Below are positions 15,692 through 21,490 of a stretch of DNA of 64,000 bases, one piece after another. The translations under genes and the position numbers were made by a program. The stretch is taken from contig NZ_JACHCQ010000014.1 in the NCBI RefSeq assembly GCF_014205835.1, forward strand, positions 1 to 64,000, given 5' to 3'. The notes under the pieces are model-generated. The model was not told the origin of the DNA. It made no database searches and saw nothing but the letters and a program-made list of their open reading frames with translations. This DNA is from Pedobacter sp. AK013 (lineage in GTDB: Bacteria > Bacteroidota > Bacteroidia > Sphingobacteriales > Sphingobacteriaceae). Each line of letters opens with the position of its first letter. The stretch's first letter is position 1.

Positions 15692-16189
15692 CTAAGAAAA
15701 AGACAAAATTTTGAGGTTAATTTTAAGGAGTTTTTTAGACTGAAATCAGTTTTAACTAAGGCATCACAGCCTGCGGAAATCTTGATTTTAGGTCTTATTT
15801 AATTACATAAAAATCAACGTGAAAGACAACAAATTATACCCCTGCCATTTTAAGTTTCGGACAATTCGGATACAGGCGAAGGAAGGAAATACTGATTTGG
15901 AGCGCACTGCCTGTATTAAACAATAAGCTTCATCCCGTTTTCCGCTTTTACGCTTCGCTTCCTCGTACCTCGTTGCTGCAGGGTAATGCTTCAACCGGGG
16001 CTAATAGGCAAAGACAGCATTTCATTTTTTGAGATTGCAGGCTGCACAAATCCCTTGTTTCTAAACCCGTATTGGAGCGGACACGGAGTGCAACGGAGTA
16101 AAGCATAAAGCGGGACCAAACCACGCCAAGAACCACTACCTATTCCTTTCCAAATAATAAACATACCAATCACTAGAAAAAATCGCAAA

Positions 16190-16560
16190 TAATTGCCCTT
16201 CGACTACGCTACCATTGACGTTATTTGGTAACTCATTAATATTTAACACATTACATTAACCCCTGCATTTCCGCCCAGCTGGGCCATAGCACAGCATCTC
16301 CGTTTCACTTAAACCCGGCCTAACAAATTTTTCGGACTGCACTGCCCAAGCCAACCTAGTAGCTTCGAAAGAAAACGGCAAAGCCCTCATGAATGCAGCT
16401 GAAAGCCACAAAAACAAATGAATAAATTTTCAGCCGGTGTTTTATTAATGGTTTTCTATTGCTTTCATTTGTATTAATGAGCTCGGCAATGCCTCGGTTT
16501 TGTTTCTTTTTGACACCAAAAAGAAAGAAGCCTGTCCGGCTAGGACTAATAAAACACCCC
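16190..16560 (-). repeat. Long dispersed repeat, copy 1
   Basis: Read on the minus strand, 16196-16345 aligns with 21279-21430 on the plus strand at roughly 80-85% identity by eye. Shared blocks are CAGTCCGAAAAATTTGTTAG, AAGTGAAACGGAGATGC, GGCGGAAATGCAGG and AACGTCAATGGTAGC. Beyond that, a CTTTCTTTTTGG...AAAAAGAAACAAAA palindromic block (about 16497-16530) and a CCGGCTGAA block are also shared. No coding potential. Confidence 0.7.
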
Positions 16561-16744
16561 GTCCTGCGGACACCCCTCTGAAAGAGGGGAATTACATATC
16601 CCAAAAGACCAATAATTAAATGTCATTTATATCGATTTTTATACAATAAATTACCCCTCAGGGTGATGTCTCTTTGCGATTCATTCCTTAACTTAATGAT
16701 ATTGGGATAACGCTTCAATCGGGGATAATGGCTTGCGGGCTAGC

Positions 16745-16785
16745 GTTGACAACTTTCATTCTTGATGCCTATTAAAGTTGTCAAC
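16745..16785. terminator. Hairpin downstream of the GT4 gene
   Basis: GTTGACAACTTT (16745-16756) and AAAGTTGTCAAC (16774-16785) are exact reverse complements with a 17-nt loop, 14 bp after the end of the minus-strand glycosyltransferase. It has no clear T-run, so it may stabilise the 3' end or terminate weakly. Confidence 0.5.
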
Positions 16786-16798
16786 TCAATAAATTCAC

Positions 16799-18001
16799 CT
16801 ACGCGCTCACCAATTCTTCGTAAATCTTTAACATTTTACTGGAGATTAAATGTACACCATGATCATTTTCGACTGTCTTGCGAGCATTCTCTCCTATTTC
16901 TACCCAACGTTTAGGATTAATGATACATTGTAAAATAGACCGGTAAAATTCATCTGCAGAATCGGCAATTAAAATATCATGTCCGTGCCTGCAATTGATT
17001 CCCTCTGCCGCCGTAGTGGTTGCAATAATGCATTTTTTCATGGCCATACCTTCAATAATTTTTACGCGCATTCCGGTGCCAGAAATTAATGGCACAATCA
17101 TTATTGCTTTAGAATTCATAAATTCTACGGCATCAAAAACTTCTCCCTCTACAATCAGGTTTTCAGAATCGTACTCGAAGAAATGTTTCTGCATATTTTT
17201 TCCGGCGATATAAAATCGGAGATCTTTATTCAGCTTTTCGATATCAGGCCAGATATCATCCAAAAACCATTCTAATCCCTCCTGATTTGGCCGCCAGTCC
17301 ATTGCACCCAAATGAAAAAGTGTAGGAAAACTGGTTTTGGTTTTATCTACCTTATATTTTTCCAGATCGATGGCAACAGGAAAAACCGACATTGGAATTT
17401 CGCAGCCAAACATTAATATGCTTTGGCGGTCGGGCTCACTAATGGCAAAAATATGGTGGAAACGGTTAATCTGATCGGTTTCATATGCTTTAAGCCGCTG
17501 GGCTAAAAAAGCTAAATACTTACGCCGAATGAGAAACTTTTCTGAATGAGAAAGACGTTCCCAAAGGGTAAATTCTATATTATGTGCCCGGTAAATCAGC
17601 TTGGCATTGCTGTTTGCCTTAACCACATCCAGATAAGGAACAACAAAAAGCCCCTCAAATTGAATAATATCGAACGCATTTTCTCGTAAGAGATTTTCTA
17701 ACTGTCGGGCAGCATCTTCGCTATAATACCTGGAAACATTGTACGATTCGTTGGTGAAAATATTAAAAAATGCCGACCATATATTTACGTCGGTATCTAA
17801 ATCGCAGGTATGGTATTTTATCTGTTCAAAAATAGGATCGTAGACGTCTTCCATATCGATCCGCCCTTTGGTTGGGTTAAGGCTAAACAAAGTAATATCT
17901 GCACCAAGTTGCAGCAAACCTTTTATGGTATTATAAACCACGATAGGATAACCACTATTTGGCGGAAAGGGAACCCGCTTAGTAATCAACAGTATTTTCA
18001 C
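16799..18001 (-). CDS. Glycosyltransferase family 4 protein
   Basis: A 400-residue GT-B-fold glycosyltransferase. The N-terminal half begins KILLITKRVPFPPNSGYP, a donor-independent acceptor domain typical of GT4. The C-terminal Rossmann half has the sugar-nucleotide site with ISGTGMRVKIIEGMAMKK and EGINCRHGHDIL, including the E-x7-E-like region. It has no signal peptide and would act on the inner face of the membrane on surface glycans. It sits alone with rnhB 21 bp upstream on the same strand, so it may be transcribed with it. Acceptor and sugar are unknown. Confidence 0.87.
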   Translation of the reverse strand: MKILLITKRVPFPPNSGYPIVVYNTIKGLLQLGADITLFSLNPTKGRIDMEDVYDPIFEQIKYHTCDLDTDVNIWSAFFNIFTNESYNVSRYYSEDAARQLENLLRENAFDIIQFEGLFVVPYLDVVKANSNAKLIYRAHNIEFTLWERLSHSEKFLIRRKYLAFLAQRLKAYETDQINRFHHIFAISEPDRQSILMFGCEIPMSVFPVAIDLEKYKVDKTKTSFPTLFHLGAMDWRPNQEGLEWFLDDIWPDIEKLNKDLRFYIAGKNMQKHFFEYDSENLIVEGEVFDAVEFMNSKAIMIVPLISGTGMRVKIIEGMAMKKCIIATTTAAEGINCRHGHDILIADSADEFYRSILQCIINPKRWVEIGENARKTVENDHGVHLISSKMLKIYEELVSA

Positions 18002-18022
18002 AATGTTGTAAAATACGAAATT

Positions 18023-18631
18023 TTAGGTGCTTTTTGAAAACAGTTCTAATTGGGGATCGCTCACATTAAAAGTTTTGCGATGAAAAGGCGATAGCCCGAT
18101 TTCAACTACAGCTTTACGGTGTGCAATTGTTGGGTATCCTTTATTCTGTTGCCAATTGTAGTGTGGATAATCGACGTGTAAGTTAGTCATATATTCATCT
18201 CGATGGGTTTTGGCCAATATAGAAGCCGCAGCAATATTTAAATATTTACCATCGCCCTTAACAATACAGCTGTGTGGAATTTGCGGATAGGTTTTGAAAC
18301 GGTTGCCATCAATCACCAGGTATTGTGGCTGAGTCTGCAATTTTTCGATTGCTCTATGCATGGCCAGAAATGATGCATTTAGAATATTAATGCGATCGAT
18401 TTCTTCATGATCACAAGAGGCTACTGCCCAAGCGAGAGCCTCCCGCTCAATAATTGGCCTCAACAAGGCCCTTTGTTCATGCGACAGTTGTTTGGAGTCA
18501 TTTAAACCTTCTAGTACAAAACCTTTTGGCAATATTACTGCCGCGGCAAAAACAGGCCCCGCGAGGCAACCTCTTCCAGCTTCATCACACCCGGCCTCTA
18601 ATAATTCTTCCTGATAGCAGTTTAACAACAT
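18023..18631 (-). CDS. rnhB: Ribonuclease HII
   Basis: Endonuclease that cleaves the RNA strand of RNA-DNA hybrids and single ribonucleotides in DNA. The 202-residue protein has the family's [17 protein letters not shown] block (Asp17, Glu18) near the N-terminus, the third acidic residue in VIDGNRF (about 108), and AKTHRDEYM (about 140) with the fourth. All four metal-binding residues appear present. It is followed 21 bp downstream by the GT4 gene. The ATG at 18631 gives a normal start. Confidence 0.95.
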
Positions 18632-18670
18632 GTTGCAAATTTACTGAAATAGAGATAGTAGGGAAATTAT

Positions 18671-18701
18671 TTTGTTCAACATCTTTTAAACATTAATTTT
18701 A
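18671..18701 (+). promoter_or_regulatory. Promoter of the 18719 gene
   Basis: TTTG at 18671-18674 and TAATTTTA at 18694-18701 are separated by 19 bp, close to the Bacteroidota -33/-7 consensus TTTG-N19-TAnnTTTG with one mismatch at the end. The ATG follows 17 bp later. Confidence 0.5.
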
Positions 18702-18718
18702 AGAATAAAGGACTTGTA

Positions 18719-19408
18719 ATGCATAGAATTAAATTAACTCTTATCTTTTGCCTGTTTTGCCTCTTTGGTTTCGCTCAGCAGAAAAAAAAAGGTAAAATAC
18801 CATCTCCTCCGTTGGCTCCCCCATCAGCTGCAGATTACGACGTCTTAGAAAAAAGAATGGCTTGTTTGTATCGAAATAAATATCAACCTGCGGAGCGGTT
18901 AAAATTTTTTCCATTTAACCAATACAAGAAGGTAATGTTGATTTCTTTTGAGCCTCCAGATATAAGTGCGGATATTATGATCACTGATAACATCGAAGCA
19001 AAAGTTAAAGCACCTTTTAAAGCAGAAGTTCATCAACCCCTATTGGCAAAACATCAGAAATTAGATCCCGCAAGGTTAAAAGAAAAAAAGATTTTATCAG
19101 CTTTAGAACTAAACAAACTGACCAATGTGCTGTATAATTTTGGTTCTACCTCTACCGAGCCTTATAAAGGCTTACTTTTACCAGCAGATGAAGGATATCG
19201 TTGTTATAACCCAAGAAATGCGATTGTGTTTTTAAATGAAAAGGGAATTATAGGCGAATATATTGAGATCTGTTTTGAGTGTCACCGAAACGAAGTAAGC
19301 TCGGAGGAGATTAAGATGGGAGAATTTTGTAATGAAAAGTACAAGCTGATAAAAGAATACTTTTATGCCAGGGGAATTAAGTACGGAACAGGCAAAAATG
19401 TCGATTAA
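18719..19408 (+). CDS. Secreted protein of unknown function
   Basis: I do not recognise the family. The 229-residue product has a signal peptide (IKLTLIFCLFCLFGFAQ) followed by a Lys/Pro-rich linker, then a single mixed alpha/beta region. Four cysteines outside the signal peptide, two of them in the ICFECHRNE segment near residue 184, may form disulfides or bind metal. It is likely periplasmic. A good promoter precedes it, and the TfoX-domain gene starts 9 bp after its stop, so the two are probably co-transcribed. Confidence 0.6.
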   Translation: MHRIKLTLIFCLFCLFGFAQQKKKGKIPSPPLAPPSAADYDVLEKRMACLYRNKYQPAERLKFFPFNQYKKVMLISFEPPDISADIMITDNIEAKVKAPFKAEVHQPLLAKHQKLDPARLKEKKILSALELNKLTNVLYNFGSTSTEPYKGLLLPADEGYRCYNPRNAIVFLNEKGIIGEYIEICFECHRNEVSSEEIKMGEFCNEKYKLIKEYFYARGIKYGTGKNVD

Positions 19409-19417
19409 TTTTAGACT

Positions 19418-19756
19418 ATGAAATATAACGAAACCTTAGCCCTTCGCGTTGCCGAACGTTTAATGCATATACAAGATATAGAGGAAAAAGAAATGTTCAG
19501 CGGGCTTGTTTTTATGGTTAATGGTAAGATGTGCCTTGGTGTTTCCAAAAATAGCATGATGGTAAGGCTCGATCCCAATACTTTAGAAAATTTATCCGAT
19601 AAAGATGGCTGGCAACAGATGGTTATGGGTGGCAGACCAATGAAGGGTTATATCTCGGTATCAGAAGATGTTTTAGGCCGAAACGATGAGCTCGATTTTT
19701 GGGTTAACCTCGCCCTGGCCTTTAACCCCTTTGCCAAGGCATCTAAAAAGAAATAA
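19418..19756 (+). CDS. TfoX/Sxy N-terminal domain protein
   Basis: A 112-residue cytoplasmic protein made up only of the TfoX N-terminal domain: MFSGLVFMVNGKMCLGV near residue 28 and a C-terminal helix WVNLALAFNPFA. In gamma-proteobacteria TfoX/Sxy activates competence with CRP, but those proteins also have a C-terminal domain that is missing here. The single-domain form is common in Bacteroidota and its role is unknown. It follows the secreted-protein gene by 9 bp. Confidence 0.85.
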   Translation: MKYNETLALRVAERLMHIQDIEEKEMFSGLVFMVNGKMCLGVSKNSMMVRLDPNTLENLSDKDGWQQMVMGGRPMKGYISVSEDVLGRNDELDFWVNLALAFNPFAKASKKK

Positions 19757-19813
19757 TCAGAAACACAATCTATTGCCCCACTCCTCATTCAAAAACTAGC
19801 AAGAGCCATATTT

Positions 19814-19842
19814 TTTGATTAATTTTATATTGACTAATCAAA
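19814..19842 (+). promoter_or_regulatory. Operator-like inverted repeat before the 19847 gene
   Basis: TTTGATTA (19814-19821) and TAATCAAA (19835-19842) form an 8-bp dyad with a 13-bp spacer, ending 4 bp before the ATG. The size and place suit a regulator-binding site or a leader hairpin; no regulator is identified. Confidence 0.3.
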
Positions 19843-19846
19843 TATT

Positions 19847-20476
19847 ATGAAAAAACAGGCTTTTATAGCGGTATTTCTACTATGTATTTCATTTACCATT
19901 CTTGCTCAGGTTAAAAGAAGCAGTACATCAACAGAAACTAAAGAAAATACACAGCAATTAAGAACTCAGGCACCGGAAGGGCATTATTGCGATTATTGTA
20001 AACTAAATTATCCCGAATCGCACTTCCCTTGCATCATGAAATCCATTAAAGGTAAACTAGATGTAACTACTGGCGAAGTAAGTTTTTTGGCCGGGCAACC
20101 TATTGGCGGAATTGTAGTAAAAGGTGGTAAAAACCCCGGAGACAACACCATTACATTAATAACCAACCAAAATGGGGAAATAGAGTTTAACAATGCGAGT
20201 GCAGGGAATTATAAATTTATCATTTTAGTACCATCTACCAATCCTAAATCGCGGGTAGCGGGATCACCAATCGGTGGAATAGTTGTTAAAGGCGGTAAAA
20301 ATCCTGGTGGAAATTTAATCACATTAATTACAAACGAAAATGGTGAAATAGAGCTGAATAACCTGCCTGTGGGCACGTATAAATTCACCGCAATGGGAGC
20401 ATCCGCAACGGAGAAAACTAATCCGTTATACAAATCAAGTTATTCTGAAAAGGTAAATCCTTTATATAAAAACTAA
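19847..20476 (+). CDS. Secreted protein with two tandem beta-sandwich-like modules
   Basis: A 209-residue exported protein. The signal peptide ends at FTILAQV. A short Cys-containing patch (HYCDYCKLNYPESHFPC) follows. Two modules of about 40 residues then repeat almost word for word: PIGGIVVKGGKNPG...NGEIEFNNASAGNYKF and PIGGIVVKGGKNPG...NGEIELNNLPVGTYKF. The NGEIE-N-LP-G-YKF ending recalls carboxypeptidase-regulatory/Cna-B-type folds. The C-terminus has a short repeated NPLYKS/NPLYKN motif. I know no named family; an envelope structural or adhesion role is a guess. It is preceded by an operator-like dyad. Confidence 0.65.
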   Translation: MKKQAFIAVFLLCISFTILAQVKRSSTSTETKENTQQLRTQAPEGHYCDYCKLNYPESHFPCIMKSIKGKLDVTTGEVSFLAGQPIGGIVVKGGKNPGDNTITLITNQNGEIEFNNASAGNYKFIILVPSTNPKSRVAGSPIGGIVVKGGKNPGGNLITLITNENGEIELNNLPVGTYKFTAMGASATEKTNPLYKSSYSEKVNPLYKN

Positions 20477-20572
20477 AATCGTTAAATTTACGCTACCTTC
20501 CATTTTTGGCACTATTATGGAATCTTTCAAGTCTGTGCATCTTTAAATTGTTACACATTTAAAACACACATT

Positions 20573-21103
20573 ATGAAACGTTTAAATTTAATATTGAGCC
20601 TGGCATTTCTTTCGCTCGGATTTCAATCTTTTGCCCAAACCAATAAAGAAACTACAGTGAAAATTGTAGCGGATAAAAACTATACTTTTGTTGCCAACTC
20701 AGCTGTACCAATGTCAAACAATGATGTTAACAGGGTACTAGCAATGATGCCAGGCGGCCAGGGAGGCTCTACAATAAACCTAACAGGATCGCAATATGAT
20801 GTAAAGGTTACCAAAGATAGTATTGTTGCTTATCTACCTTATTTTGGAAGGTCTTTTTCTGCCCCGATGGATCCGACACAAGGGGGGATTAAGTTTACCT
20901 CAAAAGATTTCACGTATACGGAATCGAAGAATAAAAAAGGATTGTACACCATCCAGATTAATACAAAGGATGTAAAAAGAGAAAACTATCGGTTTACCAT
21001 CAATATCTCTACCAATGGTTATGCATCTTTGACGGCTAGCAGTGTAAATAAACAACCCATTATTTTTAACGGTTATTTAGATGAGCCGAAGAAACAAGAT
21101 TAA
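20573..21103 (+). CDS. DUF4251 domain protein
   Basis: A 176-residue exported protein of the DUF4251 family, which is restricted largely to Bacteroidota. The signal peptide ends at FQSFAQT. The body has the family's KIVADKNYTFVANSA start, the YDVKVTKDSIVAYLPYFGRSF centre and FTYTESKNKKGLYTI. It is predicted to be a periplasmic beta-rich domain of unknown function. It follows the tandem-module gene by about 95 bp, and its own promoter was not found. Confidence 0.85.
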   Translation: MKRLNLILSLAFLSLGFQSFAQTNKETTVKIVADKNYTFVANSAVPMSNNDVNRVLAMMPGGQGGSTINLTGSQYDVKVTKDSIVAYLPYFGRSFSAPMDPTQGGIKFTSKDFTYTESKNKKGLYTIQINTKDVKRENYRFTINISTNGYASLTASSVNKQPIIFNGYLDEPKKQD

Positions 21104-21149
21104 AATTTGTCATCCTAAGGGATAATTTATTTTATAAAAATCAATATGA

Positions 21150-21430
21150 GTGACGTTTTTCACTCTACGGCGCAGTCATGCCTCGGCTCGCCGCCGCCGA
21201 ACGGCTCTTTCTTTTTGGCATTAAAAAGAAACAAAAAATGCCGGCTGAATTTTTTTTTTCAAAGCCAGTGTCACGGCTAGAACAATGCAGTCCGAAAAAT
21301 TTGTTAGGCCGGGCTTAAGTGAAACGGAGATGCCGTGCTGTGGCCTAGCGGGGCGGAAATGCAGGCACCGAGATAATACATTAAACATTAATGAGTTACT
21401 AAGTAACGTCAATGGTAGCCTGTCGAAGGA
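21150..21430 (+). repeat. Long dispersed repeat, copy 2
   Basis: This 387-bp gap between the DUF4251 gene and the glutaminyl cyclase gene has no coding sequence. It holds the plus-strand copy of the repeat found inverted at 16190-16560, with the same order of blocks: CTTTCTTTTTGG-AAAAAGAAAC, CCGGCTGAA, CAGTCCGAAAAATTTGTTAG, AAGTGAAACGGAGATGC, GGCGGAAATGCAGG, AACGTCAATGGTAGC. It ends in a TCGACAGGCTCA-type palindromic tail near 21460. Confidence 0.7.
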
Positions 21431-21490
21431 CCTGTTTAAATTTATATTAAGGCATTTCGACAGGCTCAATCTGACATATCAATAATTAAA

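Follow-up and report, generated by a model that had tools for sequence, protein, structure and literature searches.

Repetitive extragenic palindromic (REP) sequences, including the bacterial interspersed mosaic elements (BIMEs) and REP doublets (REPINs) that occur with REP-associated tyrosine transposases (RAYTs), are palindromic, non-coding and present in many copies. In a stretch of 64,000 nucleotides from Pedobacter sp. AK013 (the window; contig NZ_JACHCQ010000014.1, positions 1 to 64,000) we have analysed two inverted copies of a non-coding repeat for which REPs are the landing site, the inserted unit being a separate element. Sequence comparisons make it very probable that these repeats are non-autonomous elements of the IS110 family of insertion sequences (IS), lying in REPs and carrying a structured cargo.

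The closest described systems are found in the IS110 family, whose members use a leader RNA, itself non-coding, that base-pairs with both the target and the donor (PMC11208160, PMC11187229). IS621 inserts into REPs, and its dinucleotide core is CT, which reads AG on the opposite strand (PMC11208160). The full elements described below resemble IS621 and IS110 in their DEDD recombinase, their long non-coding left end and a leader segment that matches the left target, and also in inserting into REPs at a dinucleotide core. The differences are that the window elements have neither recombinase nor leader, that there is an 8-bp subterminal inverted repeat, that the targets are Pedobacter REPs and that a right guide was not found (PMC11208160). 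In the IS1111 family, which uses a seekRNA, transposition has been reported for cargo flanked by IS ends. Subterminal inverted repeats (7–17 bp in the IS1111 group) and specific targets are shared with our elements, but the non-coding region is usually downstream of the gene in IS1111 members and is upstream here (PMC11187229). ISPpu9, ISPpu10, ISPa11 and ISPsy8 are similar in their specific insertion into REP sequences; these are insertion sequences, however, and miniature derivatives with structured cargo are not mentioned in the abstract (PMC1525189). The literature searched yielded no description of miniature IS110-type elements in REPs with structured cargo, and IS110, bridge RNA and non-autonomous were not found together in it. 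As mobile DNA the repeats are ordinary; their IS110-type miniature form with structured cargo is apparently undescribed in that literature.

We propose that IS110-type left and right ends flank the cargo at the place where the recombinase gene and leader (guide-RNA) region would otherwise be. The recombinase and guide (bridge or seek) RNA of a full element would recognise these ends, and a REP would receive the unit at GAG^C in a fixed orientation, with no long duplication of the target. The sequences themselves show where the unit ends, that the site orthologous to that of copy 2 can hold an unbroken REP, that the targets are of one class genome-wide and that IS110-type elements with like ends exist. 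Movement of the copies in trans by such an enzyme, its guidance by RNA and the role of AG as crossover core are inferred.

The unit and its split REPs

A sequence-only reading of the window had reported a several-hundred-base non-coding repeat in opposite orientations 5 kb apart. This inverted repeat is real, its arms (16208–16375 and 21252–21419, 168 nt) being 82% complementary, and so is the shared block that had been seen on the outer side (16498–16528 and 21206–21236, 31 nt, 90%). The copies have a third arm in common (16618–16666 and 21110–21158, 49 nt, 84%), and among the inverted repeats listed for the window this 16-kb/21-kb pair is the longest. The absence of a coding frame was confirmed, the open reading frames (ORFs) overlapping either copy all being short (≤82 aa). 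The shared blocks had caught only part of each unit, the full lengths being 448 bp and 299 bp.

Copy 1 (16209–16656, minus strand, 448 bp) runs from a left end starting GGGTAATTTATTGTATAAAAATCGATAT through the cargo to a right end finishing ATAACGTCAATGGTAG; it is one of five full copies, and its limits are taken from the alignment of copies and the sequence. The right half of its split REP (CGTAGTCGAAGGGC) is at 16195–16208 (minus) and the left half (GACATCACCCTGAG, assigned from sequence and copy alignment) is at 16657–16670 (minus). Locus L042 has an unbroken REP of this subtype. Copy 2 (21120–21418, plus strand, 299 bp) is diverged and lacks internal segments of copy 1; its orthologous sites include empty and filled ones. 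It is preceded by the left REP half TTTGTCATCCTAAG (21106–21119, plus) and followed by the right half, a spacer rich in AT and the other member of the REP pair, which is inverted (21419–21477, plus). On either side of each window copy stands one half of a REP palindrome (GTCATCCTGAG^C..GTCGAAGGA). There is no recombinase gene as a frame in 16209–16656 or 21120–21418, so the window elements are derivatives rather than autonomous members of the IS110 family.

The genome of the strain (6.07 Mb, 84 contigs) gave 43 matches with the 21-kb copy as query and 34 with the 16-kb copy, five of the latter about full length. These five (the window copy on C14, two on C3 and one each on C5 and C27) are 91–98% alike over about 470 bp; the remaining copies have only blocks in common. 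When the copies are aligned with their flanks they agree inside and diverge outside, with sharp change points, and the flanks together make up a REP palindrome, with GTCAT.CTGAG as its left half and C(G.A|CT)GTCGAAGG as its right half. The halves carry CCC/GGG at window copy 1 and at the C5 copy and TCC/GGA at one C3 copy and at window copy 2; those of the other C3 copy and of the C27 copy match each other incompletely. Near-identical insides with differing REP halves are as expected for a unit entering pre-existing REPs.

As a separate observation, some split REP pairs of the own genome (L044, L049 and L053) seem to lie inside a larger unit with inverted TATCATA-like motifs, as if another miniature element encloses them.

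Orthologous sites

The protein encoded at 16799–18001 was used as query to collect 50 loci, nearly all from Pedobacter, and 19 of them (two from one species) yielded the gap between the two genes that enclose copy 2. In L099 and L101 the site is empty and holds an unbroken REP pair, GTCATCsTGAG^CCTGTCGAAGGACC; the pair is also unbroken, though diverged, in L105 and L136. In L130 an element sits exactly at the ^ position of the REP, L108 has the same left end with a different cargo, and L106 and L107 (one species) have a remnant with a right end. The other 12 of the 19 loci have other palindromes or short unrelated gaps. The earlier suggestion of a non-autonomous mobile element is supported by these unbroken sites, by the exactness of insertion and by the IS110-type elements with like ends.

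The REP of copy 1 was not seen at the corresponding site in relatives with a gap of less than 700 bp, so that for this site the information comes from the paralogous REP alone. Adjoining copy 1 is a second non-coding repeat (..CCCCGGTTGAAGCATTACCCTGCAGCAACGAGG.., 15923–16012, minus), also found in the orthologous gap of L102 and L108.

Ends and target rule across Pedobacter

The left end (27 nt, ≤3 mismatches) occurs in 26/79 Pedobacter genomes, with up to 55 per genome, and the reversed pattern gave no match in the same 79. Among 95 distinct left ends (≤4 mismatches) a right end follows within 600 bp in 64 and farther away in five; none was found by pattern in the other 26, some of which have a degraded right end, reach the end of a contig or are nested. 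The three right ends closest to a left end (83–99 nt) may be chance matches, and one right end serves two left ends (L176).

The 64 units allow the target to be described by features that were absent from the search pattern, namely GTCAT, GAG and C. With up to one mismatch, GTCAT is present in the 18-nt stretch to the left in 60/64 units compared with 18% at random places, and the exact motif in 45/64 compared with 1.7%. The left junction reads GAG in 55/64 units and C lies directly to the right in 52/64. A REP-like right half was counted in 54/64, using a loose pattern and no control set, and the TAG end in 60/64 is largely a matter of construction because the right-end pattern itself contains GGTAG. 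By these counts insertion is in one orientation, at GAG^C. Consistent with this, the window elements are site-specific, in a single orientation, without a long target duplication and with a common dinucleotide at both junctions, copy 2 having AAG instead of GAG. Because AG stands at both junctions, a shared 2-bp core and a 2-bp duplication look the same. The insertions are in REP families of differing sequence (GTCATCCTGAG, GTCATTTCGAG), and ends of the same kind also enclose other cargo, for example REP-type hairpins.

IS110 recombinase elements with the same ends

IS110-type elements with these ends are present in two other Pedobacter genomes, decayed in one (G107) and in two halves in the other (G083), and a third (G092) shows the left end and leader only. 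A relative was met first in genome G056, where all three copies of an IS110 with a 471-codon frame begin immediately at such a right end (3/3); its own right end, TGTCATTGATAG, is of the same kind as those of the units. A REP right half follows in two of the three copies, and the left end of the mini-units lies upstream in both copies that were followed further out. Its protein as query found 8/145 Pedobacter genomes at E 1e-40. One of these is G107, whose element is 1554 bp long and consists of the left end GAG^GGTTAATTTATTTCATAAAAATCAATAT..TGACGTTA, a leader, a recombinase frame with stops and the right end AATAACGTCAATGGTAG. Its DNA as query found 4/145 genomes at E 1e-12 (G107, G083, G092 and G024). 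In G083 the left half lies in the REP GTCATCCTGAG^ and the right half lies before CGGAGTCGAAG, at two contig ends, and both half frames are open. G092 has two copies of left end plus leader at contig ends, 97% identical, beside which no recombinase was seen, and G024 has a 119-nt remnant only. The contig breaks within the G083 and G092 copies suggest more than one copy.

The N-terminal half of the G083 protein matches PF01548 (39.2 bits, cut-off 29) and the protein of the G056 relative matches both PF01548 (52.8 bits) and PF02371 (43.9 bits); the scan covered these two proteins, with G083 for PF01548. The non-coding sequence before the chosen start codon is 233 nt in G083 and 230 nt in G056, and after the stop it is 27 nt and 52 nt, respectively. 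The IS1111 layout, with the non-coding region downstream of the gene, was not found in these elements; the region is upstream, though a subterminal repeat is present in G107.

The leaders contain segments identical to the element's own left target: AAGCTGAG in G092 (8 nt), TCCTGAG in G083 (7 nt) and ATGGTAG in G056 (7 nt). In letter shuffles such a match arose 6 and 2 times in 1000 for the respective G092 copies, whose leader is the same. The G092 and G083 segments fall in one aligned leader block, CCTG-AAG-CTGAG in G092 and CCTG-TTC-CTGAG in G083, the left targets being AAGCTGAG and ATCCTGAG, respectively. In G107, whose leader was compared over 205 nt, a block (AATCTGAG) is one base off the target. 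A leader matches the target of another element over 4–6 nt, with exceptions that involve the G107 and G056 targets: the G092 leader also fits the G107 target, which is identical, and the G107 and G083 leaders fit the G056 target over 7 nt. These few independent cases are suggestive of an RNA guide.

Several other loci were considered as the autonomous element and rejected. At L147 and L156 an IS110 gene lies between the ends, but it belongs to a different IS110 element (frames of 382 and 343 codons, respectively) inserted within the unit, and in L244 the transposase frame, which we take to be IS66, looks nested. Pairwise comparison of the IS110 copies of G067, G073, G056 (two types), G087 and G042, from which L293 was left out, showed none with these ends. 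A weak left-end-like stretch was noted at L169.

The cargo

Much of the interior of both copies is a repeat in its own right, found elsewhere in tandem or clustered within single intergenic regions (L091–L095 in G006 and G007, and L132). It also occurs without these ends, since G006 and G007 have it and their left-end count is 0. The cargo is a separate structured repeat. With model R1 it was found in 61/201 genomes and 8/25 genera of the family at E 0.001, although the E-values are rough and many of the matches outside its own genus are weak. The core in copy 2 (21241–21356, plus) scores 108.3 bits (E 1e-25), this copy being part of the R1 alignment. The core in copy 1 (16271–16385, minus), which is outside that alignment, scores 88.2 bits (E 1.2e-20); here a further module splits the outer-stem arm, so that one arm of the helix described next is interrupted.

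Profile searching gave 113 hits, of which 76 were distinct and fully covered and 58 entered alignment A1; those left out were 16 with a module in the 5' arm (including window copy 1), the truncated L084 and a near-duplicate (L132:13587). One helix was picked by eye on the same sequences that tested its pairing; in the 58 copies 95.2% of its cells are paired and seven pairs change on both sides, which 0/500 shuffles reached. Mutual-information ranking without a preset structure placed the pairs 9-79 and 13-75 of this helix, and 17-57, which extends it, within the top five; the remaining two are outside it. Additionally, the loop of the hairpin preceding this helix can pair with the strand before the helix. 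Among the 35 copies whose hairpin fitted the pattern, to which this count is confined, at least four bases pair in 22, and 11/20 distinct combinations pair compared with a shuffled mean of 3.8 and a maximum of 8 in 2000. In 17 later copies the loop was recognised in 11; at least three bases pair in 10 of these and four in 2/11, so the 4-bp criterion fares worse. In the window this hairpin is at 21206–21236 (plus) in copy 2 (TTTCTTTTTG-GCAT-..AAAAAGAAA), where an ATGC directly ahead of the core stem may serve as partner of the loop, and at 16498–16528 (minus) in copy 1, with a possible loop partner further downstream; both were assigned by eye and are outside the 35 counted copies.

The earlier idea of a structured RNA is supported for the cargo only, and there as a nucleic-acid structure, the helix and the loop-to-strand pairing being covarying. 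On the other side, RNAalifold predicted no pairs on the cargo, copy 1 has a folding z-score of -0.88 as RNA (for copy 2 as DNA the value is -3.55) and the element has no Rfam match at the gathering score, the best permissive match having E 0.47 and 20 bits against a threshold of 50. Upstream of the core, the covariation scan was uninterpretable because of misalignment. The folded form could be either strand, as RNA or as single-stranded DNA, and the cargo is a candidate for a new structured RNA family. Readings of it as a group II intron, attC or omega-RNA, which we weighed by known motifs and presume not to apply, were dropped.

Alternative explanations

Several observations weigh against the assignment to IS110. 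No recombinase with these ends was found in the 84 contigs of the strain's own genome, which gave no match to the G107 element DNA and none to the G056 protein at E 1e-40; the sole IS110 recombinase found there (L088, C48:5775-6185, 364-codon frame) is without these ends. None of 29 fetched IS110 loci has them as its own, and in two the IS110 is nested inside such a unit. No full element was obtained intact as one continuous sequence, that the two G083 halves belong together is our inference, and the third G056 copy is not followed by a REP half. The 8-bp subterminal inverted repeat of G107 (TGACGTTA/TAACGTCA) fits IS1111 better than the IS110 group. The inner motifs of the left and right ends are mixed among the 64 units (32 matched, 8 crossed, 24 other). 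As to the guide, the left matches of G083 and G056 are individually weak (reached in 58 and 87 of 1000 shuffles), the own match of G107 is 5 nt (539/1000), and the ATGGTAG found in the leaders of G107 and G083 is identical to the right end of each as well as to the G056 target. No right guide was found in the leaders, the best match being 4–5 nt.

The same camp of evidence includes the distribution of Y1 transposases, and a REP-associated tyrosine transposase (Y1, IS200-like or RAYT) might move the elements via single-stranded DNA. The lack of target duplication and the fixed orientation fit IS200/IS605, the left end contains a short AT palindrome (TTTAT-NNN-ATAAA), and Y1 genes are present in 26/26 genomes with the left end compared with 21/53 without it. 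This is stricter than the association with IS110 genes (19/26 with and 16/53 without); both sets of counts were read from tables by hand, each genome counting individually regardless of kinship. However, REPs themselves depend on Y1 genes, and this dependence may explain the association. Neither of the two own-genome Y1 loci has such ends, and of 29 fetched loci scanned by pattern (about 60 further Y1 matches lay outside the scan) only L230 had a left end, separated from the Y1 frame by about 1.2 kb that contains other frames. Like-ended elements encode an IS110 DEDD recombinase, and we regard movement by Y1 as unlikely. More improbable again is a structured RNA, selfish or functional, that spreads by itself and includes the ends. 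The covarying structure of the cargo and its wider spread than the ends would suit such an RNA, but ends of the same kind hold quite different cargo (REP-type hairpins) or a recombinase, and the cargo occurs in G006 and G007 without any left end. If the unit were spread from REP to REP by homologous recombination or gene conversion instead of transposition, the REP-like sequence that flanks most copies would be accounted for. We rate this slightly lower still, as the target REP families differ and have only short stretches in common, and the ends have an IS110 counterpart.

The inverted arms had also suggested that the 5-kb segment between the copies could invert, and 168 nt at 82% might let the copies recombine as a switch. 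This was not borne out: gene order and orientation are equal in 19/19 loci (18 genomes) with both outer genes. None of these loci has a left end at both sites by profile scan, so the comparison lacks a locus with both copies; the scan, over the window and loci L091–L145 (944 kb), found four copies, two of them in the window. The two copies are, moreover, in different REPs, and a switch has next to no probability. The window copies are two independent insertions and, this being so, their inverted layout is incidental.

Neighbouring features

Elsewhere in the window, Rfam gave a match to DUF805 RNA (RF03081; 30887–30952, minus, 73.6 bits), and an ORF of 209 aa of secreted type has an internal 120-nt direct repeat (72%; 20098–20385).

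Implications

Non-autonomous IS110-family elements in REPs remain the reading that we prefer. Taken further, it is possible, though on balance doubtful, that many Pedobacter elements are moved in trans into REPs by RNA-guided IS110 recombinases, as a natural counterpart of bridge-RNA cargo delivery, and that the cargo is an undescribed, family-wide structured RNA with a pseudoknot and possibly a cellular role. Bridge-RNA recombinases are studied as programmable insertion tools, and natural non-autonomous users, of which some genomes have dozens of left ends, would reveal the range of ends, targets and cargo that such a system tolerates in trans.

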